This document shows positions 51,325-63,982 of a stretch of 64,000 bases of DNA, piece by piece. The stretch covers positions 1 through 64,000 of the forward strand of contig CAJAVU010000023.1 of NCBI GenBank assembly GCA_903945495.1. Direction: 5' to 3'. Positions within the stretch are counted from its first letter, which is position 1. Each line of letters begins with the position of its first letter. The DNA comes from an uncultured Flavobacteriales bacterium (lineage in GTDB: Bacteria; Bacteroidota; Bacteroidia; Flavobacteriales_D; Crocinitomicaceae). The notes beneath the pieces were generated by a model, which did no database searches, was not told where the DNA came from, and saw nothing but the letters and a program-made list of their open reading frames with translations. The position numbers and the translations under genes were made by a program.

Positions 51325-51912
51325 TTAGCCTATCATTCGTTTGAAAGTTGCCCACATTATTTTTAGATCTGTTCCAACTGTTGGACGTTCGAGGTATTTC
51401 TTGTTCATCTCTATTTTGGTTGGCATAATGACTTCGATATAGGTTTTGTGTGGATCTTCAGAATTACCCAACAATTCATTTTCGTTGAAATATTCTACCG
51501 AAGCGTAATCTGTAATTCCTGGTTGCACATTTAAAATCTGACGTTGGTCTTCTGTGTATAAATCAACAAATTCTTTGACTTCAGGGCGCGGACCAACGAT
51601 GCTCATCTCCCCTTTCAAGACATTGATAAACTGAGGAAATTCATCCAATTTAAACTTACGCAAGAAATACCCAGAATTAGTAATTCGAGGATCGCGCATA
51701 CCAACCGTTAATTTACCCGCTTTGTCTGCATCTTTTCGCATTGAACGAAATTTCAACATTTTAAATGGAATTCCATGTTTACCAATTCGCTCCTGCCGAT
51801 AAAAAACACCACCTTTTGATTCTAGTAAAATCCAGACAGCCATAACAATTCCAATTGGCAGAAATAGACTCAAGATTATGAGCGAAACGAGTATGTCGAA
51901 AATTCTTTTCAC
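51325..51912 (-). CDS. Initiating sugar-phosphate transferase (PglC/WcaJ-type)
   Basis: 195 residues, the small monotopic phosphoglycosyl-transferase core. One membrane-embedded hairpin (ILVSLIILSLFLPIGIVMAVWI), then RQERIGKHGIPFKMLKFRSM and the catalytic Asp-Glu pair in LRKFKLDEFPQF, and MSIVGPRPE. Transfers a sugar-1-phosphate to undecaprenyl phosphate and starts repeat-unit assembly. Last gene of the locus on the minus strand. Its upstream region holds the GAATGAAG repeat array. Confidence 0.92.
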   Translation of the reverse strand: MKRIFDILVSLIILSLFLPIGIVMAVWILLESKGGVFYRQERIGKHGIPFKMLKFRSMRKDADKAGKLTVGMRDPRITNSGYFLRKFKLDEFPQFINVLKGEMSIVGPRPEVKEFVDLYTEDQRQILNVQPGITDYASVEYFNENELLGNSEDPHKTYIEVIMPTKIEMNKKYLERPTVGTDLKIMWATFKRMIG

Positions 51913-52441: not shown

Positions 52442-53650
52442 TTACAAAATCGAATCGACAGCTTTCTTCACAGCATTTACAACTGTTTGAACTTGCGCAT
52501 CCGTCAAATTATAATAAACAGGCAACGAAATTTCATTGTGGTATTTATTCCATGTTTCAGGATAATCTTCCATTTTGTAACCGCGTTTTTTGTACGCCGT
52601 CAAGGTTGGTAATGGTAAAAAGTGAACATTCACAGAAACATCTTGATCAAAAATCACTTGCATGATCGCATCGCGTTGTGCTTCAGTAATGTTTGCAATG
52701 CGCAACTGATATAAATGATAACAACTTATTTTGCTTTCTGTCGTGTGAAGTGGCGTAATTGCCCATGATTCATTTGCAAAAGCAGCATCGTATTGTTCGA
52801 AAATCGATTTTCTTCGATCTAGATTCTCTTGATAGCGTTCCAATTCAACCAAGCCAATTGCAGCTTGTAAATCTGTCATGTTGCATTTAAAACCTGGCTC
52901 TTCAACATCATAACGCCAGTTACCTTTTTGCGTTTTTGCCAAAGCATCTTTGTTTTGACCATGCAAAATCATTGTACAAAACGCTGTATAGATTTCATCG
53001 TGATCAAAGTTGTCAGGCAAATTGAAACACAAAGCGCCACCTTCCGCTGTTGTCAAATTTTTCACTGCATGAAACGAAAAAGAGCTAATGTCAGTCAAAG
53101 AACCTGAACGTTTTCCATTGTAGGTTGCTCCAAAACTATGCGCTGCATCACTGATAACAAGAATACGATCTAATTGCTCTTGTTTTTCGTTATTCGCCGA
53201 AAACATCGATCGAATTCCTTCTTCTCTAACCAATGCATTCAATTGGTCATAATCACACGGAAAGCCAGCTAAATCAACAGCAATTATCGCTTTTGTTCTA
53301 GGCGTAATTGCATTTCGAACCGCTTCAACTGAAATATTAAAATCTCCTGGGTTAACATCCACCATAACTGGTTTCGCTCCAGCGTGAACAATTACATTTG
53401 CACTTGCACAATACGTGTAAGCAGGAAGAATCACTTCATCACCTTCTTGAATTCCCCACCAATTCAATAACACCTGCATTCCCATAGTCCAAGAATTGAC
53501 CGCAACCGTAGTTTTACAACCACAGTATTCAGTTATTTTCTTTTCAAAAAGTTTCGTTCGAGGACCAGTTGTAATCCAACCACTTTGCAAAGCAGCTGTA
53601 ACCTCATCAATGACTTTTTGATCTATTCTTGGTGGTGAAAATGGAATCAT
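52442..53650 (-). CDS. DegT/DnrJ/EryC1-family PLP-dependent sugar aminotransferase
   Basis: 402 residues. PLP lysine is K197 in SFHAVKNLTTAEGG; the start MIPFSPPRIDQKVID and GWITTGPRTKLFE are typical, as is VISDAAHSFGA for the cofactor Asp. These enzymes aminate 4-keto (or 3-keto) nucleotide sugars to make amino sugars for surface polysaccharides. The exact sugar cannot be read from the sequence. No dehydratase partner is present in the window. Confidence 0.93.
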   Translation of the reverse strand: MIPFSPPRIDQKVIDEVTAALQSGWITTGPRTKLFEKKITEYCGCKTTVAVNSWTMGMQVLLNWWGIQEGDEVILPAYTYCASANVIVHAGAKPVMVDVNPGDFNISVEAVRNAITPRTKAIIAVDLAGFPCDYDQLNALVREEGIRSMFSANNEKQEQLDRILVISDAAHSFGATYNGKRSGSLTDISSFSFHAVKNLTTAEGGALCFNLPDNFDHDEIYTAFCTMILHGQNKDALAKTQKGNWRYDVEEPGFKCNMTDLQAAIGLVELERYQENLDRRKSIFEQYDAAFANESWAITPLHTTESKISCYHLYQLRIANITEAQRDAIMQVIFDQDVSVNVHFLPLPTLTAYKKRGYKMEDYPETWNKYHNEISLPVYYNLTDAQVQTVVNAVKKAVDSIL

Positions 53651-53694: not shown

Positions 53695-54720
53695 TTATCT
53701 CGACAATCGTTTTTGTTTATCGGAAGGTTTTTTATTCAAAAGCATAAATTCAAAAATACCTTTCAAATAGCCTAAGCCATAACTAATATGAAGTAAGGGA
53801 AATGTGATTAATACATCCATGAAATTGACCTTTTTATCTTCAGAAACAACATTAGCTGAAACATAAATAGCCAAAAAAACATACATCAAGAATGGAACAG
53901 AAGCCAGAAGGAAGACGGTTGGTGAAATAAACGGCAAAGGCAACAATAGCGCTAAATAACTCACAAATAAAGGCGGAACCAGTTGGCGGAGTGTCGTTAC
54001 TGACTTGTGTTTTCGATTTACATATACTTTCCAATAACCATATTGGAAAAATTGACGCCAAAGACCTGAGTAATTTCCTCGCACATAATATCGCAACGAA
54101 CTATCATTGTCATAATAGATTTTCCCACCTTCATTTGTAACACGAAAATTGAAATCATCGTCTTGATTACGAATCAATTCCTCGTCAAAAAAGCCGATTT
54201 TTTCAAACACCCAATAAGGATACATTGGACTCGTTACGGTATCTGTATAACCCGATTTTTCTAAGGTTCTAAAATTTCCTAGTCCCATTCCAAATGCTGT
54301 AGACATTGCTTTGGAAATTACTCGACCTGTTTCGTTTACGTATTCATTGACAATTTTACCACCCACACACCAAACAGATGGATCCGTTTCAAAGCGTTTC
54401 AAACTGTTTAATAAATAATTTTGACTAAGGATGTGTCTTGCTCCAACAATCTGCACAAAATCGACCTTTCCACCTGCGTAAATACCAAGGTTAAACGCAA
54501 AGGGAGTTAATTGCTTTAGGTTGTCAACCAATTCTAAGTTTGGATACTGTTGGATTAGGTCATTGACACGTTCACGCGTTCCGTCATTACTCATTCCGTC
54601 AACAACAAAGACTTTAATTTCCGCAGAAACGGGTAAATCACATGCAAAAATCGCATGAATACACTCTTCGATGTATTGTTGCTCATTTCTACACGGTATT
54701 ACAATGGAAATCTTTGTCAT
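53695..54720 (-). CDS. Family 2 glycosyltransferase
   Basis: 341 residues. GT-A domain with ISIVIPCRNE, the VDGMSNDGT segment, a DxD-like DFVQIVGARHIL and EEL/NQDDDFNFRV in the acceptor region; two membrane helices near 250-305. The start overlaps the dltA stop by four bases, so this transferase is translated together with the dlt system, a strong hint that the dlt acyl target is the glycan it builds. Confidence 0.92.
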   Translation of the reverse strand: MTKISIVIPCRNEQQYIEECIHAIFACDLPVSAEIKVFVVDGMSNDGTRERVNDLIQQYPNLELVDNLKQLTPFAFNLGIYAGGKVDFVQIVGARHILSQNYLLNSLKRFETDPSVWCVGGKIVNEYVNETGRVISKAMSTAFGMGLGNFRTLEKSGYTDTVTSPMYPYWVFEKIGFFDEELIRNQDDDFNFRVTNEGGKIYYDNDSSLRYYVRGNYSGLWRQFFQYGYWKVYVNRKHKSVTTLRQLVPPLFVSYLALLLPLPFISPTVFLLASVPFLMYVFLAIYVSANVVSEDKKVNFMDVLITFPLLHISYGLGYLKGIFEFMLLNKKPSDKQKRLSR

Positions 54721-56231
54721 GTATGAAAATTTTTAAATGCTTTGTTTAAATAAATTGCTTCCAGTTTCTTTTTATCCGTCTTACCACTTGTATTCAGTGG
54801 TATTTCATGAATTTTTCGAAAATCAGAAGGAATCATATATTCAGGTAATTTTTTTCGTAGAAAAGAGACCAACTCAGCTGAATCTAGTTCATTTTGAGCA
54901 GAATAAAATGCAACAATTTTCTTTGTTTCTCCTTTGCTTTTTAGACCAATCGTACTTGCATTTTCAATTGATTCGAATGTTTTTAGCGTAGAGGAAATAT
55001 CTTCTAATTCGATGCGATATCCATGGAATTTCACCATTTCATCGTTTCTCCCTGCATAAAAAATTAAGCCGTCTTTGTAATAACCTTGATCTCCAGTTAA
55101 ATAAATCCGCTCGTTTTCATAGGTGATGAATTTAGCTTGGTTCAATTCTTCATTGTTCAAATAACCAGGGGACAAGTGTTCGCCCTGAATGCAAATTTCA
55201 CCTACTCCTTCTTCGTCTTCATTTAATAGAATGATTTTCGAATTTGGTTTCGGATATCCAATCGGCATGGCGTTGTATTTCTCGATGATTGAATCATTCA
55301 AGCGCACCGAGGTTGTTAAATTTGTTGCTTCAGACGGACCATAGGCATTCCAAATAGCTGCAGAAGGAAAACGCTTTGCCAATTCCTGATAGGTTTTTAC
55401 TGGTAAAGCTTCACCAGCGAAAACAAAGGAATGTAGATTCGGCAAATGTTCTTCTGTGAAACGCGGATCTCTCAAATAGAGATATACGAGACTTGGAGTC
55501 GAAATCCAAACGCTCACGTTGTGCGCAAGAATTTTATCAATTAAACCCGTTTGATCTTTTAACTCATCAGAGGTAACCGAGACGAGTGTTGCGCCTAAAC
55601 GCAAAAATAAAAATTCATCAAATGATGCAAAATCAAAGCTTAAGGAAGAAACATTGAGCAAAACATCCGTTGAATCAATCGAAAAATCGTTTGAAATCCA
55701 TTGTGAAAATTCGATAATTCCTTTACGTGCAATTGGTACACCTTTCGGACGACCAGTTGTTCCAGAAGTAAAGAGGATATAATTGATCTTATTCTCTGGT
55801 TCTAACGGATTTTTCAATTCAAAATCAATCTTTCCTTGTTGCTTAATACACGTTATAGATGGAGCTTGAATAACACAATCGAATAACTCGTTAATTGCAA
55901 CGTCTGTCGTACAGTTGATTAAAACTTGCGCCTTGCATTCCTCTTTCATCATTTGGATGCGCTCAAAAGGAAAAATAACATCTGCCGGAACATACACAGC
56001 TCCGTAGAGCATTAAAGCAGTTTTCGCTGCAATGATGTGTGCTTGTTTATGTCCGTAAATGATTACAGGATTACTTTTTGGAAGATTCAATTCATTCAAC
56101 AACAGAAGTAATTTATTTACTTCCATTTCGAAATCTCCCCATGACCAAGAAAAATCACTTCCAACAAGCGCAATTTTATCCTTTTCAACATCGGATTCAA
56201 TCAGCTTATTATCTTCAAATGAATACTTCAT
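54717..56231 (-). CDS. dltA: DltA-like aminoacyl-carrier-protein ligase (AMP-forming)
   Basis: 504 residues, the length of DltA. The adenylation motifs are SGTTGRPKG at 156-164, FAGEALPV at 271-278, NAYGPSEAT, YLTGDQG and TSGKTDKKKL (catalytic Lys). DltA activates an amino acid with ATP and loads it on DltC. In D-alanine-specific DltA the segment reads F-C-G-E; the Cys blocks L-alanine. Here it is A272, so the amino acid may differ (L-Ala, Gly or others). The gene overlaps the GT2 gene by four bases and follows dltB after 46 bases. Confidence 0.88.
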   Translation of the reverse strand: MKYSFEDNKLIESDVEKDKIALVGSDFSWSWGDFEMEVNKLLLLLNELNLPKSNPVIIYGHKQAHIIAAKTALMLYGAVYVPADVIFPFERIQMMKEECKAQVLINCTTDVAINELFDCVIQAPSITCIKQQGKIDFELKNPLEPENKINYILFTSGTTGRPKGVPIARKGIIEFSQWISNDFSIDSTDVLLNVSSLSFDFASFDEFLFLRLGATLVSVTSDELKDQTGLIDKILAHNVSVWISTPSLVYLYLRDPRFTEEHLPNLHSFVFAGEALPVKTYQELAKRFPSAAIWNAYGPSEATNLTTSVRLNDSIIEKYNAMPIGYPKPNSKIILLNEDEEGVGEICIQGEHLSPGYLNNEELNQAKFITYENERIYLTGDQGYYKDGLIFYAGRNDEMVKFHGYRIELEDISSTLKTFESIENASTIGLKSKGETKKIVAFYSAQNELDSAELVSFLRKKLPEYMIPSDFRKIHEIPLNTSGKTDKKKLEAIYLNKAFKNFHT

Positions 56232-56277
56232 AGTTCCTTATTTCTCCTGCAAGGTTAAACATCAACTGATTTTCGGC

Positions 56278-57474
56278 TTAAAACAACTTTCCGCTAAAAA
56301 TATAGATTGAAACGGCAACCGCATTCACCAGCATGAAAATCGATAAAACCTTGACCAATTGCGGGTTCAAATTACCAAATAAAACATCACGTCCTTCTTT
56401 TTTGCAGCGATAATTGTAATAGTTATGGATTACCGAGTACAATCCGAAAAGCATACCTGATGCTACATAATGTAGTTCAAAGCCATTCCAAAAACCCATT
56501 AATGTAAAGGTTAAGAACAAGGCTACACTTTGACGTTGAATGGACGTGTTAAAGCGTTTTTTACTCGTGAAATTTTTAAATATCGGTTTGAAGAAATAGT
56601 CGTTTAACCAATCTCCCAATGATTTATGCCAACGTTGCCAAAACTCTTTCGGATTTTGAGCAAGAAAAGGTTTGTCAAAATTTCGTGGAACCTGAATACC
56701 CAAAAAATATCCAAACGCCATGGCTAACAGCGAGTAACCCGCAAAATCAAAGAATAAATAGACCAAATATCCATACATATCAACCAAATAGTAGATGATG
56801 CCATGGAACTGATCTAGATGCGTAAGCAATAAACTATTTAAAGCCGTTGCAAGAATGTATTTGAACAAAAGTCCTGCCACCAGGAAATCCATTCCTTTCA
56901 GAACATTAGCCGAATTAATACTGCTAAATCCTAAATCAACGTTCTTTTCGAAACGCTCATAGCGATCAATTGGACCAATTAAAAGTGTTGGAGGAAACGC
57001 TAAGAATGTAAAATACGAAATAAACGATATCTCTTTTCGATTTGCTTCATCGAAATGAATTTGGAGCATTTTAAACGACGCGTAGGATAAACCAGCAATC
57101 TGAAAAATAGACTGAACTGAAAGCTTAAAACTTGGCAAGACATTGAACAACTTCATTAAAAAAAGCGGCAAGACATACAGAATGATGATTTTAGCACCTT
57201 TCCAATTGTGTTTCTTTGAACAGAACTTAAATAAGAAAAATCCATATCCAATAAACGCGATGAAATGCAGTGGTTTTGGAAATAATAGCAACAAATAGAT
57301 GAAGGAAATTACAGCTAGAAAATAGCCATAGGCTTTTACCGAATTTGAAAACCCAGCTTTTAACAGAAGTCCAAGACCAACAAGCAAAAAGAGGAATACA
57401 TAAAACTGACCATTTGCAAACGGCAAGGTGTTGTGCAATTCTAAAAATGGACTTATGTCTGTCGTAAATATCAA
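56278..57474 (-). CDS. dltB: DltB-like MBOAT acyltransferase, catalytic His replaced
   Basis: 398 residues, about 11 membrane helices. DltB landmarks: LIGPIDRYERF (167-175 region), FDFAGYS around 242-248 and FWQRWHKSLGDWL with H283. The position 47 residues after H283, where MBOAT enzymes have the invariant active-site His in (F/L)WHG, is N330 in FWNG; another His (H335) follows in ELHY. The DNA there clearly reads AAT. DltB moves the aminoacyl group from DltC across the membrane. Start: TTG at 57474, since no ATG or GTG lies between it and an upstream in-frame stop; 11 bases separate it from dltX. Confidence 0.85.
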   Translation of the reverse strand: MIFTTDISPFLELHNTLPFANGQFYVFLFLLVGLGLLLKAGFSNSVKAYGYFLAVISFIYLLLLFPKPLHFIAFIGYGFFLFKFCSKKHNWKGAKIIILYVLPLFLMKLFNVLPSFKLSVQSIFQIAGLSYASFKMLQIHFDEANRKEISFISYFTFLAFPPTLLIGPIDRYERFEKNVDLGFSSINSANVLKGMDFLVAGLLFKYILATALNSLLLTHLDQFHGIIYYLVDMYGYLVYLFFDFAGYSLLAMAFGYFLGIQVPRNFDKPFLAQNPKEFWQRWHKSLGDWLNDYFFKPIFKNFTSKKRFNTSIQRQSVALFLTFTLMGFWNGFELHYVASGMLFGLYSVIHNYYNYRCKKEGRDVLFGNLNPQLVKVLSIFMLVNAVAVSIYIFSGKLF

Positions 57475-57485
57475 ATTTCCAAAGA

Positions 57486-57644
57486 TTAAAATTGTTGATA
57501 GACAAAATCCACTTTTGATTTTGTTTCGATGTTTTGGTTTGGATAAACAAGCTCCTCAATATTGACTACGTAGATTAGAAAATAACCTACTATCAACAAG
57601 GTATACAGCAATACATTGTATAGAAATCTATTTTTTCTCTCCAT
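57486..57644 (-). CDS. dltX: DltX microprotein (52 residues, C-terminal FxYxxF)
   Basis: A short gene too small for usual cut-offs. ATG at 57644, TAA at 57486-57488. Residues 1-6 are basic (MERKNR), residues about 7-28 form one membrane helix, a short periplasmic linker follows, and the protein ends DFVYQQF, that is FxYxxF at 47-52 as the very last residues. This is the diagnostic layout of DltX, whose C-terminal Tyr (here Y49) is thought to accept the acyl group from DltB and pass it on through DltD. It overlaps the dltD 3' end by 17 bases and stops 11 bases before dltB, exactly in the operon. Confidence 0.88.
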   Translation of the reverse strand: MERKNRFLYNVLLYTLLIVGYFLIYVVNIEELVYPNQNIETKSKVDFVYQQF

Positions 57645-58794
57645 AAGTGTCCACTAAAAATTTATTTATTTTCATCCATCCCAAGTGACCTGTATGCATA
57701 ATATCATCCAAAGTACCAGGAACGTAATCGTTTGAATCTGCTGTAAACATATTCAAATATGGAACATCATTTTTGTCTAAGTAATTGGTCATTTTTGTTA
57801 AAATCGGATTAAATCTCTCCAATTTTTCAAAATGATACGGATTCAAATTTTGAATGATTATCGAAACATTTGCGCCATTTTTCTTAAGATAATCTACTAA
57901 CAAATAGAGATCTTTCAATTCTTGATTGTCCGACTTTAAAACCGAAAATTCAGCATGCTTGTAGTCTTTTTTCAAGTATTCCTCATAATATTCATCGTTA
58001 ATGAACATTTTATTGGAATGCACATTGTTCGCAAATTGTTCTTCCAACTCACTAAATTTCTTTTCCCAATTGACGTTTACCGTTTTTTGAGATGGTAGTG
58101 AAATGTTCGATTCCGGATATTGAATAGTAGCGAATTCACTTTTTCTGTTTCTAAAATAATCGTTGAGAACCGGAAAACCGTGATATTCAAACAAATTAAT
58201 AAAGTAATTTATTCTCCTTCCTGGACTGGCGATCAAATACTTGTTTCGATGTAAATAATTACCAATTTCCTGCTTTTCTGCAAGTGTGATACCTTCATCC
58301 TTGATAATTCGCTCTAACAGATTTGGTGTTGCAAATTCTAAAAAAGCTTCGATATTCGTTCCATCTGTATCAAACCAACCTGGACTTACAATAATGCAAA
58401 TATTTGCGTTTTTCACTTCATTTCTATAACCCAATAAGGCAGAGTACATGGCGTATGACTGAAAATAAGCATGTCCGAAACTACTCACTCTTAAATTGAG
58501 GTTATTTGTAGCGAAAATGTGTGGAATATATTCTGATTTTGAGGTTAATTCAGAAGAACCAAGCAAGGTCACGCCTTTTTTTTCTCGCAAAGACAAATAC
58601 AAATTGTGTTCGGCATTCACACCGTCTTTCAACGAATAGGTGTATGAATCTATACCTGTTTTCGTGTTAGAAATTGTTTTAACCTTTGGGTTTTCAATTT
58701 TTAAAACAGTTTGGGTCAGAAAAATAATTGAACCCAAAGAAACAACGAAGGCAAGTAGTAAAGCAGTAATATGATATTTTAGTAGATTCCTCAA
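57628..58794 (-). CDS. dltD: DltD-like esterase/transferase
   Basis: 388 residues with an N-terminal membrane anchor (about 10-30) and an extracytoplasmic SGNH-type domain. The nucleophile motif is GSSE at 79-82; the conserved DltD segment SPGWF (SPQWF in Firmicutes) follows; the acid and base are D364 and H367 in DDIMHTGHLGW. DltD transfers the aminoacyl group to the final polymer. Starts within the dltC stop (4-base overlap) and ends inside the dltX start region. Confidence 0.9.
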   Translation of the reverse strand: MRNLLKYHITALLLAFVVSLGSIIFLTQTVLKIENPKVKTISNTKTGIDSYTYSLKDGVNAEHNLYLSLREKKGVTLLGSSELTSKSEYIPHIFATNNLNLRVSSFGHAYFQSYAMYSALLGYRNEVKNANICIIVSPGWFDTDGTNIEAFLEFATPNLLERIIKDEGITLAEKQEIGNYLHRNKYLIASPGRRINYFINLFEYHGFPVLNDYFRNRKSEFATIQYPESNISLPSQKTVNVNWEKKFSELEEQFANNVHSNKMFINDEYYEEYLKKDYKHAEFSVLKSDNQELKDLYLLVDYLKKNGANVSIIIQNLNPYHFEKLERFNPILTKMTNYLDKNDVPYLNMFTADSNDYVPGTLDDIMHTGHLGWMKINKFLVDTYGEKK

Positions 58795-59015
58795 GCCTTT
58801 AATCTTTCTATGTACGCCATAATCAAGCGAACAGAATTGAAGTTTTCTTCAACAACATCAACCATTGGAATTTGAATAGCGTATTCTCCTTCCAATTCAA
58901 CAATCAACTCAACGATTGTAATTGAATCTAAAATTCTATCCGTCCAAAGCTTATCGTCAATGCCTACTTGTACAAAGGCAATTTCTTCTATTCGATCTTT
59001 TACAAACTGTTCCAT
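58791..59015 (-). CDS. dltC: DltC-like carrier protein
   Basis: 74 residues, all helical. The 4'-phosphopantetheine serine is S31 in RILDSITIVELI. Carries the activated amino acid from DltA to DltB. Length and motif match DltC rather than fatty-acid ACP. First gene of the dlt block, with its own promoter-like box directly upstream; the dltD start overlaps its stop. Confidence 0.87.
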   Translation of the reverse strand: MEQFVKDRIEEIAFVQVGIDDKLWTDRILDSITIVELIVELEGEYAIQIPMVDVVEENFNSVRLIMAYIERLKA

Positions 59016-59020
59016 TGGCG

Positions 59021-59053
59021 CAAAATTAATAAAAAAATCGGTTAATTTTGAAA
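59021..59053 (-). promoter_or_regulatory. Putative dlt promoter with near-leaderless start
   Basis: Minus-strand TAATTTTG (59021-59028) fits TAnnTTTG; TTTC (59050-59053), one base from TTTG, stands 21 bases upstream. Transcription would begin about 1-5 bases from the dltC ATG, which gives a leaderless or almost leaderless mRNA. It lies in the 85-base gap after the O-antigen ligase-like gene. Confidence 0.4.
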
Positions 59054-59100
59054 CTGAAAAGTAGATGAAACAACCCGTTCTAGCTCGAAAATAGGACCAA

Positions 59101-60369
59101 CTATATTGTTGAAGTTTTACTGTTCTTGTCTATTTCAACAAGCATAAAGAAAAACAAGTAGAAGATGATTCCGGCTTGCAATTGAAGCATGGATTCAAAA
59201 AGAGAATTTAGCAACAAACTTGAAAACAAAACAATCAACAAAACGGATCGCTTTTTCACACTGTAAACTACCCCACCGAAAGTAATCAAAAGTAAAATGA
59301 TTAAACCAAAAACTCCAATCTCTAATTGGGTTTGTAAAAATTGATTATGCGGATTGTATTGCTTATCAGCAAAGGTCGGATTTCCTTTGGAACGAATATT
59401 TTTACCCAAATAAATATCTACATTTCCAGTACCAACACCGAACGGATGAGCCGCAATTTCTTCACATGTAATAGACCACATCACCAAGCGTGTTTCTGAA
59501 CTTGATGGTGATTCACTTAATTGCTGAATGAATTTTTCTGGTGATTTAAAATAGCGCTCAGTTGCACGTGCTGTTTCATTGATATCATCTCGAATGAAAG
59601 GCGTTTTGAAAATGAGTACGACCAACAAACCGATTGCAACCAGTGTAAAACCGACCATAACTTTGACAGAAAATCTGTTTTTCAAATACACCAAAAACAA
59701 GATAGCACCTAAAACTAGGATTGAAAGTAAGCCTGCTAATGACATTAACAATAAGGTATACAGCACTAAAAGGACAATTAAACCGAAGAAGCTTACGCGT
59801 TTGATTGATTCTTCTTTGTAGAGAAAATAAGCAGAAACCATTGAAAGTAAGGCAAACACACTCATATACGTTGGATGCATGTGAGGCGATAAATGACTTT
59901 TCAAAAAGCAATAAGGGAAGGAAAAATGCTGAATATAACACGGAATACCAATGTAAATTCCATACCCAAAAGACACTAAGGTAGCCAAAATCAATCCCCA
60001 ATAAACTGGTTTCATTGCAAATCCAGTCGGTTTACGAAAGGAAAATAAAAAAGGAAAAAGTATAAAAACCGCTTTGTTTTCAAGGTACTTTGACGCTTGA
60101 TCCATGTTTTCGGTCCAAATGATTCCAATCGCGTAGGCGCAATACAACATGGCAAACAGTAAACTGAATTTGTTTAATTGAAAGGTGATTGTTTTGCGTA
60201 CATAATTTATAATGATGACAAGAACCATCAATAAAATATACGGACCAGCAAGCTTTGACGCATTAATTAACACGACAAAGAATCCTGCCAAGATTAACTC
60301 GAGGTAATTGATACGTATATAGTTCAACAGTTTCTCCACGATCTTAGCGAATAGTTTTATAAAGTTCAA
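59101..60369 (-). CDS. O-antigen ligase/polymerase-like membrane protein (Wzy_C)
   Basis: 422 residues, about 11 membrane helices. The large periplasmic loop carries HPFGVGTGN and NPHNQFLQTQLEIGVFGLIILL, with the conserved His of the WaaL/Wzy_C family. It either polymerises the repeat unit or ligates the glycan to lipid A core (or to protein). Overlaps the GT4 gene upstream by 26 bases. The 85-base gap before dltC is the main break in this part of the locus. Confidence 0.88.
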   Translation of the reverse strand: MNFIKLFAKIVEKLLNYIRINYLELILAGFFVVLINASKLAGPYILLMVLVIIINYVRKTITFQLNKFSLLFAMLYCAYAIGIIWTENMDQASKYLENKAVFILFPFLFSFRKPTGFAMKPVYWGLILATLVSFGYGIYIGIPCYIQHFSFPYCFLKSHLSPHMHPTYMSVFALLSMVSAYFLYKEESIKRVSFFGLIVLLVLYTLLLMSLAGLLSILVLGAILFLVYLKNRFSVKVMVGFTLVAIGLLVVLIFKTPFIRDDINETARATERYFKSPEKFIQQLSESPSSSETRLVMWSITCEEIAAHPFGVGTGNVDIYLGKNIRSKGNPTFADKQYNPHNQFLQTQLEIGVFGLIILLLITFGGVVYSVKKRSVLLIVLFSSLLLNSLFESMLQLQAGIIFYLFFFMLVEIDKNSKTSTI

Positions 60370-61459
60370 GTAAGTTTTCTGCTTGAGATTCCCATGAATA
60401 ATTCGCAGTTACCTCAGAAATGGCAGCATTTATGATTTTCTCGATATTTTCTTCATTTGTTAAAATCCGCTCAATTTGATTCGCAATTTCAATCGGATTC
60501 AAGGGATCAACCAAAAAGCCAATTTCTTTCTCTTTTACAAATTCATACAACTTAAAATCAGAAACAATTAACGGAATACCAATTGCCATGTATTCAAAGA
60601 TTTTTGTTGAATAGGAGCGTATATAATTTGGCACCGGATGAAGAATTGACAATGCAACTTTTGACTTTTCGGCGTAAACATAGGCTTGGTCAACTGGCAA
60701 TCTTCCATAAAAAACGATGGATTCTTTTACGTTTCTATATTCGGGCAATTGCTCAATTTTTATTCGAACCTCTTCCGAAATTGGTCCTATACAGTGAAAA
60801 GTGTACTGAATGTTCTTCTTTTTTAGTAATTCTAGGGCTCGAATTATCTCGACAATTCCTCTTGCTTCTGAAACTAAACCAACATATAAAATGCCATTTT
60901 CCGTTTTTTGATTAGATGGAATGCGATACACCGAGAGCGAATCAATCACTGGGAAATTCAACACTTTTGTTATCGATTTGGACTTTCCAAGATAGAGTTC
61001 TTCATACGAATCTTCGGCAATAACAATGTAAAATAGTTTTGCCGATAACCATTCAAAAAGTGAATAAATTCCAATGGTGAGCTTAGGAAATTTCAACCAT
61101 TTTTTATCGGTTATTTGTGCTTTCACATTTTCATGAACATCAAAAATGACTTTTTTTCCGAATAATCGCAGGATTAATCCAACCCAAATTAGTTCAGGGT
61201 CATGAAAATGATAAATTTTCGATTTTGTTTTTAAGGCTCTTCTTAACACACGAAAAGCAACAATCGTTGCTCTAAACAATCTGCTTTTACGCTGATTTTC
61301 AACACCTATTACATGAACGTTTTGAACAATTTGATTTTCGGCATTGGGGGCAACTAAAGAAACTGTATAACCATTCTTTGCCAATGTCACGCATTCTTTG
61401 AAAAAGATCCGAGTATCGTTCCAACTATGGACGCTTGTAATATGGCAAACTTTGATCAT
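60344..61459 (-). CDS. Family 4 glycosyltransferase
   Basis: 371 residues, GT-B fold. N-terminal domain ITSVHSWNDTRIFFKECVTLAKNGYTV, C-terminal donor domain with FEYMAIGIPLIVSDF (conserved E-x-x-A/G-x-G-x-P-x-V type motif of GT4). Donor and acceptor sugars unknown. Four-base overlap with the next upstream GT4 gene and 26-base overlap with the ligase-like gene, so all are translationally coupled. Confidence 0.92.
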   Translation of the reverse strand: MIKVCHITSVHSWNDTRIFFKECVTLAKNGYTVSLVAPNAENQIVQNVHVIGVENQRKSRLFRATIVAFRVLRRALKTKSKIYHFHDPELIWVGLILRLFGKKVIFDVHENVKAQITDKKWLKFPKLTIGIYSLFEWLSAKLFYIVIAEDSYEELYLGKSKSITKVLNFPVIDSLSVYRIPSNQKTENGILYVGLVSEARGIVEIIRALELLKKKNIQYTFHCIGPISEEVRIKIEQLPEYRNVKESIVFYGRLPVDQAYVYAEKSKVALSILHPVPNYIRSYSTKIFEYMAIGIPLIVSDFKLYEFVKEKEIGFLVDPLNPIEIANQIERILTNEENIEKIINAAISEVTANYSWESQAENLLELYKTIR

Positions 61460-62490
61460 TCTTTTATGATTTTTTGATAGAGCTTAAGAAACTTTTCACG
61501 ATTCGCTTCCTTTGTGCCATCTTGATCAATACGTTGCTTATTTAGTTCTATTGCTTCTGTTTGATTCAACAAAAGTGCATCTGAAATAAAATCGCTTTCC
61601 AAATCTTCCACCACGATTCCATTTACACCCGATTGTATCCATTCGCGATTCGCAGGTAAATCAGAAACAACAGGAATACTTCCACATGCCATTGCTTCGA
61701 GCAAACTAATCGAAGTAGCATCCGATTCTGGAATTGAAACCCAAATTTTAGCCTTTGAATACCATTGTTCGTTGTCTTCTTTTTGAATCCATCCAACAAA
61801 TTCAACATCATCGGTTAAACCCAATTCATTCGCTTTGTCTTTTAAACTCTCTGTTTCAGTACCCGTTGCGGCAACAACCAAGCGCCAGTCTTTTCGCTCG
61901 TTGTTATGTTTAAAGCGAGCAAACGCTTCAATAATTTTATCGACGCGATACAATTTTTTATGCAAGCGATTGGAATAAACAATATTCTCTTTTGGACAAT
62001 TAACTGGCGTTACATCAATACCAAAATTTGCCACAAGAATATTATTCTTCAGTGTTGCAAGTTTTTCCATTTCTTGCGCCATAAACGTAGAGTCTGATGT
62101 CAAAAAATCGGCATTGCGCAAATTGAATTGCACCAATTTCTTCAACAGAACATTGCTATTTGGCAATAACAACACATCACTTCCCCATGCTGTTAACACA
62201 GTTGGAATTGAACTTTTTCGACTTGCTAAAAGCGTATAAAAAGCAAAGCTATTTGCTTGATGGATATGTATAATAGTAGGTTGAAATGAGGCAATCTGTT
62301 TTTTAATTCCTCGAACTGTAGAAAATAAGTTTTTAATCTTTAAGTTGAAACTTAACTCTACTGTTGGATAATCGTAAGCCGTTGATTTTTCATTCGTTAT
62401 CAATAGCACTTCATCAAAATAGTCTTCAACTAATTGCAAATACTTATAGGTATGAATCGTATTTGAACTGACTAGTAATAATTTACGCAT
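61456..62490 (-). CDS. Family 4 glycosyltransferase
   Basis: 344 residues, GT-B fold. C-terminal motif SIPESDATSISLLEAMACGSIPVVSDL is the GT4 donor-site signature; HIHQANSFAFYTLL lies in the N-terminal acceptor domain. Adds a sugar to the lipid-linked repeat unit. Coupled by a 4-base overlap to the following GT4 gene; 32 bases after the deacetylase-like gene. Confidence 0.92.
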   Translation of the reverse strand: MRKLLLVSSNTIHTYKYLQLVEDYFDEVLLITNEKSTAYDYPTVELSFNLKIKNLFSTVRGIKKQIASFQPTIIHIHQANSFAFYTLLASRKSSIPTVLTAWGSDVLLLPNSNVLLKKLVQFNLRNADFLTSDSTFMAQEMEKLATLKNNILVANFGIDVTPVNCPKENIVYSNRLHKKLYRVDKIIEAFARFKHNNERKDWRLVVAATGTETESLKDKANELGLTDDVEFVGWIQKEDNEQWYSKAKIWVSIPESDATSISLLEAMACGSIPVVSDLPANREWIQSGVNGIVVEDLESDFISDALLLNQTEAIELNKQRIDQDGTKEANREKFLKLYQKIIKE

Positions 62491-62522: not shown

Positions 62523-63305
62523 TTAATATTTTAAACCTTCAAAAAAGCGTTTACTGTTTTCGTAGGTGTTCCAATAAAAACTCGATCTCCAATTCTTCGG
62601 ATGCAACAGTAAATGCACAATTTGATACTGATCTAACGCATCTAATTGTGAAATTGGGCCATTGTAAAATCCAGGTCCACCAGCATCCATAATATTGATG
62701 GAGTAATTATCTAAAAACTCAGCATCATACGCTTCGAAGACTAAACCGTTATCGTCCAATACATCACGATTGACAAAGGTGTGATTCGGCATTTTAAGTT
62801 TTCGATTGGCAAAATCACCGTGACTCGCAATGTATTGAATCTTTGATCCTAATTGGGTTTCTAGCGCCGATAAATTGTGCTTGAATTCCTTTCTAATTTC
62901 ATCGAAATGCTGTTGAATCTCTTCTGCTGATTTGATTTTATGACGTTTTGCATAGCTTGCCAATTCTTCATAATGATAACCGCAATCTGATCCATACGCC
63001 AACACTTCTTTCATGATTGGAATATCAATCGTGCAAAGCCTGAAATAGTAAGATGTATGAATCTTGTATTTTTTTTCAATTCGTAACCATTCACGACAAT
63101 AGCTTGGATCTGAATCGATGTCTTGTCGAATCATTAAAATTTTGCGCGAACCAATTTCATTTTTCTTCACTAAATCAAAAAACTGGCTGTGCGGCATGAT
63201 TTCAAATCCTTTGTCCAAAGCCGTTTTAATCAAATGGTCGTATTCATTGATTCTGTTGTGCAGAAAATAATCAAGTCCAATTCGTTTCAATATGGTTTTA
63301 ATCAT
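62523..63305 (-). CDS. Polysaccharide-deacetylase-like protein (CE4-related)
   Basis: 260 residues. The NodB-like order of motifs is visible: IRQDIDSD (catalytic/metal Asp pair; related proteins have RHDVD), DCGYHYEEL (metal His), ASHGDF and LLLHPKNW (late His). The usual His before the Asp pair is Gln here. It may de-acetylate a sugar in the repeat unit. The start overlaps the acetyltransferase-like stop by four bases, so a pair that adds and removes acyl groups is possible. Confidence 0.75.
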   Translation of the reverse strand: MIKTILKRIGLDYFLHNRINEYDHLIKTALDKGFEIMPHSQFFDLVKKNEIGSRKILMIRQDIDSDPSYCREWLRIEKKYKIHTSYYFRLCTIDIPIMKEVLAYGSDCGYHYEELASYAKRHKIKSAEEIQQHFDEIRKEFKHNLSALETQLGSKIQYIASHGDFANRKLKMPNHTFVNRDVLDDNGLVFEAYDAEFLDNYSINIMDAGGPGFYNGPISQLDALDQYQIVHLLLHPKNWRSSFYWNTYENSKRFFEGLKY

Positions 63306-63982
63306 CGCTTAAAGTTTACGGTGAAGGGTTTGAATCCGATTCGTTTCTTGAACATGACTAATCCATTTTCGAACTTTCCGAAGGTGTCATACATGATAAA
63401 GTTAATTCGATTGTCATTTACAAACGTTGAAACGACCCTCGTCATCAATAAATACATGACATTCTCTTTCAAATAGTCGCCGTGACCAAGAATTCGATTA
63501 ATCAATACCATTTCGCCCACGACATAGGTCCACACATACGCTACTAATTTGCCTTCTTTAGAATAAACTCCAAACCAATTATTCACTTCATCGTTTGGCC
63601 ATTCAGTGACTAAGTGCTTATAACTTTCGTCCATTTCACGCCCTTGTCGCTCAGTAGAAGATGTATTAATTTCAAAAATGGCATCAATTTCATTATTCGG
63701 ATTAAACGACTGAAAAGTGTATCCTAATTTTGCGCAGCGTCTCGAAAAATAAGCCGCAGAATTTTTACCATTCACCGAACCCAAATAATCATCTTCTTTC
63801 GAAAATTGATCAATTGGCAATAATGAAATATTGTATTTCTTTAATTTCAAAAAGCCGCGCTTCCACGCCCTGGAATTAAAATAGCTCAAGAGGCGATTAG
63901 CGGTTTCAGAATTCCCTAACCGAATAGCCACTTTTCCCTCTGGAGAAAGAATATTTTTGATTAGAAATTTATACTTTTTCAT
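63302..63982 (-). CDS. GNAT/FemAB-related acyltransferase-like protein
   Basis: 226 residues. A GNAT-like beta-alpha core is visible in WFGVYSKEGKLVAYVWTYVVGEMVLINRILGHGD and the later VMYLLMTRVV helix, FIMYDTFGKFENGLVMFKKRIGFKPF strand-helix-strand end. No precise family is recognised; sugar N-acetylation or peptidyl transfer to glycan are the likely roles. Translationally coupled to the deacetylase-like gene. Its ATG is 18 bases from the window edge, so upstream genes of this locus are not seen. Confidence 0.6.
   Translation of the reverse strand: MKKYKFLIKNILSPEGKVAIRLGNSETANRLLSYFNSRAWKRGFLKLKKYNISLLPIDQFSKEDDYLGSVNGKNSAAYFSRRCAKLGYTFQSFNPNNEIDAIFEINTSSTERQGREMDESYKHLVTEWPNDEVNNWFGVYSKEGKLVAYVWTYVVGEMVLINRILGHGDYLKENVMYLLMTRVVSTFVNDNRINFIMYDTFGKFENGLVMFKKRIGFKPFTVNFKR

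Follow-up and report, generated by a model that had tools for sequence, protein, structure and literature searches.

In Gram-positive bacteria, the Dlt system (dltXABCD) D-alanylates teichoic acids, and D-alanine passes from the carrier DltC, by way of DltB, to the tyrosine of an F-x-Y-x-x-F motif in DltX and then to DltD (PMC12148441; this and the other papers cited here are drawn on in excerpt). PatA-type proteins of the same membrane-bound O-acyltransferase (MBOAT) family bear the shuttle motif themselves (PMC12148441). Gram-negative Dlt homologues, the dlt genes of Dickeya and dra of Bordetella, are linked to antimicrobial-peptide resistance (PMC3544676, PMC5541007, PMC4448142). Here we describe a five-gene Dlt-like cassette in a 64,000-nucleotide stretch (the window) of contig CAJAVU010000023.1 from an uncultured Flavobacteriales bacterium (assembly GCA_903945495.1). 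The cassette lies within an operon for a Wzx/Wzy-dependent surface glycan, and we think it probable that it was inserted there and esterifies that glycan with an amino acid on the outer side of the inner membrane.

All five open reading frames (ORFs) are intact and lie on the minus strand at 54717-59015 in the order C-D-X-B-A, with overlaps of 4 bases between dltC and dltD, 17 between dltD and dltX, and 4 between dltA and the following GT2 glycosyltransferase gene. In a Pfam search DltD matches PF04914 with 137.1 bits (gathering threshold 22.7), and it matches TIGR04092 with an E value of 7.1e-34 (117.8 bits against a cut-off of 150); DltB matches the NCBIfam model TIGR04091 (E 1.5e-76) and DltA matches PRK04813 (E 4.3e-119, 398 bits against a cut-off of 476, which Photorhabdus DltA, at 379, also fails to reach). 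DltC matches PF00550, while its matches to DltC models are weak (PRK05087, E 2.5e-8) and its top NCBIfam match is AmcB, another carrier. The carrier Ser31 is conserved in 13/13 aligned DltC sequences, as are GSSE and DxxH in 13/13 sequences of DltD, a protein that we take to be of the SGNH type. Among PDB sequences, DltC and DltD each match their namesakes best, whereas DltA matches gramicidin synthase best, with a score that spans two domains, and DltA next; at E <= 0.001 DltB matches only two sequences, both DltB (E ~1e-41), and the top PDB fold match of its AlphaFold model (mean predicted local distance difference test score 79) is the DltB structure 6bug, with a template-modelling score of 0.78. 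Judged by these sequence and fold matches, the five genes are confirmed as dltC-D-X-B-A homologues of what is probably a modified form of the Dlt system that works like it. An O-acetylation system of the AlgI/PatB type was considered and rejected, since the profile, PDB, and fold matches are to Dlt and the C-terminus of DltB lacks the shuttle motif. An earlier note on this DNA had proposed a complete five-gene dlt-type operon with a four-base dltA/GT2 overlap, and both hold; of the profile searches it suggested, those with DltB, DltC, and DltD models give matches (in NCBIfam below the cut-offs) and that with the DltX model does not.

The name DltX rests on position and on the C-terminal tail, because the window copy has no match in any of the family models searched, including Pfam PF12459; nor does it match any PDB chain. 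A microprotein lying between dltD and dltB and ending in F[VI]Y[QA][QK]F is present in 39/39 Bacteroidota cassettes that include this region, the window among them. The window has 468 ORFs of 30-90 amino acids, just one of which ends in F-x-Y-x-x-F, and among 4222 such ORFs in 38 other loci exactly 38 do so, one per locus. PF12459 gives 14.7-19.2 bits with three of five Bacteroidota copies, under its cut-off of 25, and 57.9 and 72.6 bits with two Gram-positive control DltX proteins. The DltX-like ORF of Photorhabdus (41 amino acids; L095 11197-11322, in the dltD-dltB interval) ends in YEYQQF, and that of enterobacterial plasmids (40 amino acids, annotated as hypothetical) ends in FEYQKF. Window DltB (398 amino acids) ends in IFSGKLF and has no shuttle motif there; by comparison, 28 AlgI-like controls are 495-546 amino acids long, and 19 of them have F-x-Y-x-x-F within the last 40 residues. 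The Dlt-type DltB of locus L039 has a chance F-x-Y-x-x-F in its last helix, not at the terminus. The microprotein was thus rightly named DltX by the earlier note, whose supposition that a Gram-negative DltX is rare fails: it occurs in Photorhabdus and on enterobacterial plasmids as well, and the Bacteroidota cassettes number about 40.

A hallmark of the MBOAT family is an invariant His with an Asn or Asp some 40 residues away (PMC8316800), and Asn/Asp...His pairs occur in ACAT1, DGAT1, HHAT, and PORCN (PMC11035591). In Streptococcus DltB, His336 is invariant and His289 conserved (PMC11035591); the MBOAT His has been termed universally conserved, and its mutation abolishes PatA activity (PMC12148441). 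In our alignment the window equivalents of His289 and His336 are His283 and Asn330. Asn occupies the His336 position in 41/41 Gram-negative DltBs with this region (38 Bacteroidota-type and three from Photorhabdus) and in the Klebsiella/Enterobacter plasmid DltB, whereas His is found there in 7/7 Gram-positive DltBs and 28/28 AlgI-like proteins. The controls come from 29 loci, one of which has no ORF bearing the search motif, and only their second His is independent because the selection motif contains the upstream one. A fragment (L080) and the Enterobacter DltB, which is identical to that of Klebsiella, were dropped from the DltB counts; the Asn counts cover the Bacteroidota-type, Photorhabdus, and plasmid proteins, with Bordetella and Dickeya DltB outside the sample. 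Across 31 plus 7 aligned DltB rows, His283 is the sole invariant His, and we infer that it is the remaining catalytic His, acting as the base. The pattern fits a functional branch of DltB in which the places of His and Asn are exchanged; no report of an Asn-type DltB was recognised among the matches listed in Creative Commons-licensed PubMed Central literature. The earlier note, which credited all five proteins with the diagnostic features, missed both this replacement of the invariant MBOAT His by Asn and the changes in the DltA pocket described below.

The genes around the cassette (Table 1) continue beyond the window with a FemAB-like gene, wzx, a second Wzy_C gene, and an epimerase gene of the short-chain dehydrogenase/reductase family, followed by that for RNase Y. 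An initiating transferase, glycosyltransferases, a Wzx flippase, and Wzy are therefore all present, as in a Wzx/Wzy-dependent locus; the two Wzy_C proteins (window 59101-60369; L106 2839-4083) are perhaps a polymerase and a ligase. The DegT protein scores above 350 bits in 24/26 genomes of the genus, including its own (two copies are fragmented), and intact copies are 71-93% identical. Loci of this kind, in which the middle genes vary and dlt is missing, are seen in seven congeners, flanked by the genes for RNase Y and the initiating transferase wherever the sequence read covers both. In congener G021, identities to the window proteins are 77% for the second Wzy, 86% for Wzx, 71% for FemAB, 88% for GT4b, 37% for GT4a, 86% for Wzy, 73% for GT2, and 89% for DegT. 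Because wzy and the GT2 gene overlap directly, without dlt, in G021 and G013, and the other 25 genomes of the genus (several incomplete, at 64-99%) yielded no Dlt-type DltB, the five genes and an 85-bp leader were most likely inserted between wzy and GT2, leaving the operon intact, as far as these sequence comparisons go; many losses elsewhere would be a less simple alternative. The earlier note's choice of the glycan of this locus as the likely target is supported, and the empty-site comparison strengthens it beyond position alone.

Table 1. Genes of the Dlt-like cassette and of the surrounding glycan operon (positions in the window)
Feature	Position	Strand	Remarks
Initiating sugar-phosphate transferase, WcaJ/PglC type	51325..51912	-	
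DegT/PseC-like sugar aminotransferase	52442..53650	-	present in most genomes of the genus
GT2 glycosyltransferase	53695..54720	-	4-bp overlap with dltA
dltA-like amino-acid ligase	54717..56231	-	504 aa; Asp200 and Lys484 present, Ala272 at the D-Ala gate, pocket altered
dltB-like MBOAT	56278..57474	-	398 aa; His283 present, Asn330 at the MBOAT His position
dltX-like microprotein	57486..57644	-	52 aa; one membrane helix by eye; C-terminus FVYQQF, putative acyl-shuttle Tyr49
dltD-like acyltransferase	57628..58794	-	GSSE at 79-82, D364xxH367; N-terminal membrane helix by eye
dltC-like carrier	58791..59015	-	74 aa; phosphopantetheine Ser31 in LDSI
Leader between wzy stop and dltC	59016..59100	-	85 bp; two congeners lack it at their empty sites
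Wzy_C polymerase/ligase, directly before the cassette	59101..60369	-	PF04932
GT4 glycosyltransferase (a)	60344..61459	-	
GT4 glycosyltransferase (b)	61456..62490	-	
260-aa glycan-locus protein	62523..63305	-	no family over cut-off; homologue in G025
226-aa glycan-locus protein	63302..63982	-	no family match

Related cassettes are sparse. A DltD query finds 3/60 relatives, including the source genome itself and one weak fragment, and PF04914 matches 23/395 genomes of the class, with 13 (again including its own) reaching at least 124 bits over most of the profile; the other 12 all have a cassette in the order C-D-X-B-A, one of them cut in dltA by a contig end. Within the family, a Dlt-type DltB (at least 317 bits) is present in 16/200 genomes, the source genome included, and the remaining matches reach at most 114 bits. 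With TIGR04091, 145 of 395 genomes of the phylum give a match; the window copy scores highest at 257.8 bits, and the next, an AlgI-like protein, scores 208. A DltD-profile scan of genome contigs yields 28 loci: 23 Bacteroidota-type (one labelled Chlorobiota and one just 'bacterium'), four from Photorhabdus, and one from Enterorhabdus. After removal of duplicates (L146, equal to L075, and L147, equal to L074) there are 40 Bacteroidota-type cassettes, so this is a sparse but widespread Bacteroidota machine and not a single oddity. Loci L073, L143, and L145, which are cut by contig ends, and L139, a family member in which dltA is split over two frames, are missing from some counts. No dlt system of Bacteroidota was recognised among the matches listed in the same literature.

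Several other loci came to light in the same searches. Plasmids of Klebsiella electrica (L109 4532-8584) and Enterobacter cloacae (L116 4532-8584) carry a dltD-X-B-A-C operon flanked by insertion sequences, with the same protein accessions in both, and a partial, identical DltB is recorded for a third plasmid. Weak DltD matches stand beside other MBOAT genes at L041 8321-12231 and L042 7866-10180, with no dltC, dltX, or dltA recognised near them. The Enterorhabdus locus (L100 1405-3878) has DltB-like and DltD-like genes, and no other dlt gene was recognised in that stretch.

A second cassette is found in a glycan locus of Bacteroidetes bacterium UBA5697 (L092), where genes for two GT4 proteins, three others, GT2, dltC-D-X-B-A, Wzy_C, DegT, and an initiating transferase follow one another on one strand. 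Its DltB falls in a different clade from that of the window, and a joint clade is rejected (approximately unbiased [AU] test, p 2.3e-7); from this phylogeny, L092 is evidently an independently recruited glycan-locus cassette. Elsewhere the neighbourhoods differ. We annotated 130 flanking proteins from 27 loci, at most three genes per side (L092 was scanned separately; proteins of at least 1000 amino acids, open-ended ORFs, and short ORFs were left out). Two of the 130 are Wzx-like, and none of the 25 commonest of 136 families is a glycosyltransferase family, although single glycosyltransferases may occur in the others; two of the 130 belong to the sodium:alanine symporter family, whose genes here stand beside dlt cassettes. 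By comparison with the window's own genes, the sole comparison made for the flanks of 11 further family loci, clear glycosyltransferase genes within ~10 kb are found only in the related pair L087/L091; L142 has one very weak match. The neighbourhood survey that the earlier note had suggested finds the same five genes in Bacteroidota, mostly outside glycan loci in the flanks annotated. Such gene-order evidence speaks well for the glycan as the candidate acceptor of the window cassette and of L092, but not of the remaining cassettes.

DltA binds the methyl group of D-alanine in a Leu/Met/Cys cavity and its amino group through Asp, Thr, and Val (PMC8972799, PMC4176424). Among 39 Gram-negative DltAs (36 Bacteroidota-type and three from Photorhabdus), the amino-binding Asp is present in 39/39 and the Lys in 37/37 that can be read, and the donor is probably an alpha-amino acid. 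The gate residue (Cys269 in Bacillus cereus) is Cys in 5/5 Bacillota controls and Ala272 in the window; of the 39, 19 have Cys there, 12 Met, 4 Ala, 3 Ile, and 1 Leu. The window protein has Phe at the Leu198 position and Asn and Leu at the pocket positions that, by what we presume to be nonribosomal peptide synthetase code numbering, are 330 and 331, each of these in 1/39; its Ala at the pocket Thr position is shared by 18/39. The nearest cassettes (L137, L138, and L145; DltB 65-70% identical to that of the window) have a canonical DltA pocket. Since the window pocket differs, a D-alanine donor is not to be assumed, and the donor may well not be, or not strictly be, D-alanine. A D-alanine donor, as in the Gram-positive system to which the earlier note compared these genes, is in doubt given the missing gate Cys and pocket residues found in none of the 38 other aligned DltAs; taken overall, the interpretation of the note is partly supported.

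DltA also differs from its partners in divergence. Between the window and L137, identities are 66% for DltC, 47% for DltD, 46% for DltX, 69% for DltB, and 42% for DltA, and the corresponding values between L137 and L138 are 76, 50, 60, 67, and 67%. In the residual of DltA against DltB identity, the window has the most negative mean of 35 cassettes (-5.2; the next is -2.6). A rule that glycan-locus cassettes have a diverged DltA was tried and dropped, as L092 ranks only 5/35 in this residual and other cassettes have similar gaps. Loci L086, L094, and L099 have a Cys-type DltA although their DltB groups with Met-type cassettes, and the activating enzyme seems to have been exchanged between cassettes there.

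By homology with Dlt and PatAB, we propose that DltA would adenylate an alpha-amino acid and load it onto holo-DltC, which would dock on DltB; the aminoacyl group would then cross the membrane to Tyr49 in the FVYQQF tail of DltX. The tail would swing to DltD, whose Ser would take up the aminoacyl group and transfer it to a hydroxyl of the glycan, and this aminoacylation may lower the net negative charge of the glycan or alter the serotype. Several points weigh against this proposal. Every NCBIfam equivalog or subfamily score of the window Dlt proteins is under its curated cut-off, and Asn330 may be a sign of weaker or changed catalysis. Since most relatives lie outside glycan loci in the annotated flanks, the machinery is able to use a different acceptor. 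A search of one genome, its own, gave no match to PF04464, the model for TagF-type enzymes (0/1), so it apparently lacks the classical acceptor. Mutation of dltB makes Dickeya sensitive to antimicrobial peptides, whereas mutation of dltD does not (PMC5541007). The divergence of DltA is also less distinctive by nearest neighbour, with a DltA-DltB gap of -27 points in the window and -20 to -28 in other cassettes. The window DltA may have been replaced from another lineage or may have changed rapidly in place; AU tests neither establish replacement nor reject it (p 0.121 and 0.0525).

Plain D-alanylation of the locus glycan, in which this machine would use D-alanine even with its altered pocket, is a prospect to be taken seriously, if somewhat short of even. 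DltA models are the best NCBIfam matches of the window DltA, which retains the Asp and Lys, and the closest relatives have the canonical pocket; moreover, the C269A mutant of Bacillus cereus DltA has lowered selectivity and still prefers D-Ala (PMC4176424), so loss of the gate Cys alone is no proof of another donor. On the other side stand the changes of Cys and Thr to Ala, the residues at Leu198, 330, and 331 that no other of the 39 DltAs has, and a divergence far beyond that of the partner genes. We consider it unlikely that the acceptor is some other envelope component, such as lipid A, core, or an outer-membrane protein, with the glycan operon providing expression only. Most Bacteroidota cassettes are apparently not beside glycan genes, an outer-membrane component is the reported target of Bordetella dra (PMC4448142), and the Dickeya acceptor, unknown in 2013 (PMC3544676), was later thought to be lipopolysaccharide (PMC5541007); however, the cassette most likely entered without breaking the operon and is closely coupled to wzy and GT2, and recruitment into a glycan locus happened a second time in L092.

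We give little credence to two further explanations. O-acylation of the AlgI/PatAB type, or carrier-dependent transfer of an acyl and not an aminoacyl group, would account for the pairing of an MBOAT with a DltD-like protein and for a carrier that weakly matches several families and has a best NCBIfam match other than DltC. It sits poorly with a DltB that leaves the F-x-Y-x-x-F motif to a separate microprotein and matches DltB structures alone by sequence (E <= 0.001) and foremost by fold, and with the alpha-amino-binding Asp of DltA. Decay to a non-catalytic system, suggested by the Asn at a position where mutation of the His inactivates PatA (PMC12148441), is equally improbable given that the same Asn recurs in all 41 Gram-negative DltBs and the plasmid form, that all five frames are open, and that C, D, and X keep their catalytic residues; a Dickeya dltB mutant, whose own DltB residue lies outside our sample, is polymyxin-sensitive (PMC3544676).

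If aminoacylation of the glycan by this cassette is correct, Dlt-type amino-acid esters extend beyond teichoic acids to the decoration of a Wzx/Wzy surface glycan, and a whole branch of systems that look intact lacks the His regarded as universal among MBOAT acyltransferases. The Asn branch would make the role of each MBOAT active-site residue directly testable, and the genus, whose operons occur both with the cassette and without it, offers a natural comparison for the effect of the modification. More tentatively, and with the balance somewhat against it, Gram-negative Dlt may form a separate class of transmembrane aminoacylation in which the MBOAT pair is reversed (His...Asn, where other MBOATs have Asn/Asp/His...His) and His283 is the base; the Bacteroidota cassette could then be set down as a unit between wzy and the gene for a glycosyltransferase as a maker of serotypes, with DltA subsequently retuned away from D-alanine.

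In comparison with known systems, all five window proteins resemble those of Gram-positive Dlt by homology or position, sharing the DltC Ser, the DltD GSSE and DxxH, the putative shuttle Tyr of DltX, and a DltB without a motif of its own. Unlike Gram-positive Dlt, the window has the order C-D-X-B-A, Asn for His336 in DltB, a DltX outside the Pfam model, a DltA without the gate Cys, a genome without detected PF04464, and a Wzx/Wzy operon setting. Because the DltB His336, the DltA Cys269, and a Pfam DltX match are all absent, we do not class it as a D-alanylation Dlt system. No glycan operon was recognised in the stretches read around the Photorhabdus and plasmid dlt genes, and the excerpts of PMC3544676, PMC5541007, and PMC4448142 mention none for Dickeya or Bordetella. 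PatAB/AlgI-type O-acetyltransferases share the logic of an MBOAT with an SGNH partner and an acyl-Tyr shuttle (PMC12148441), and differ in carrying the motif on the MBOAT, in using acyl-CoA without a carrier, and in retaining the His (28/28 AlgI-like controls). The Photorhabdus system shares the order C-D-X-B-A and the DltB Asn and has the DltX tail YEYQQF; the enterobacterial-plasmid system shares the Asn and differs in its order, D-X-B-A-C, and the DltA gate residue is Cys in Photorhabdus, Ile on the plasmids, and Ala in the window.

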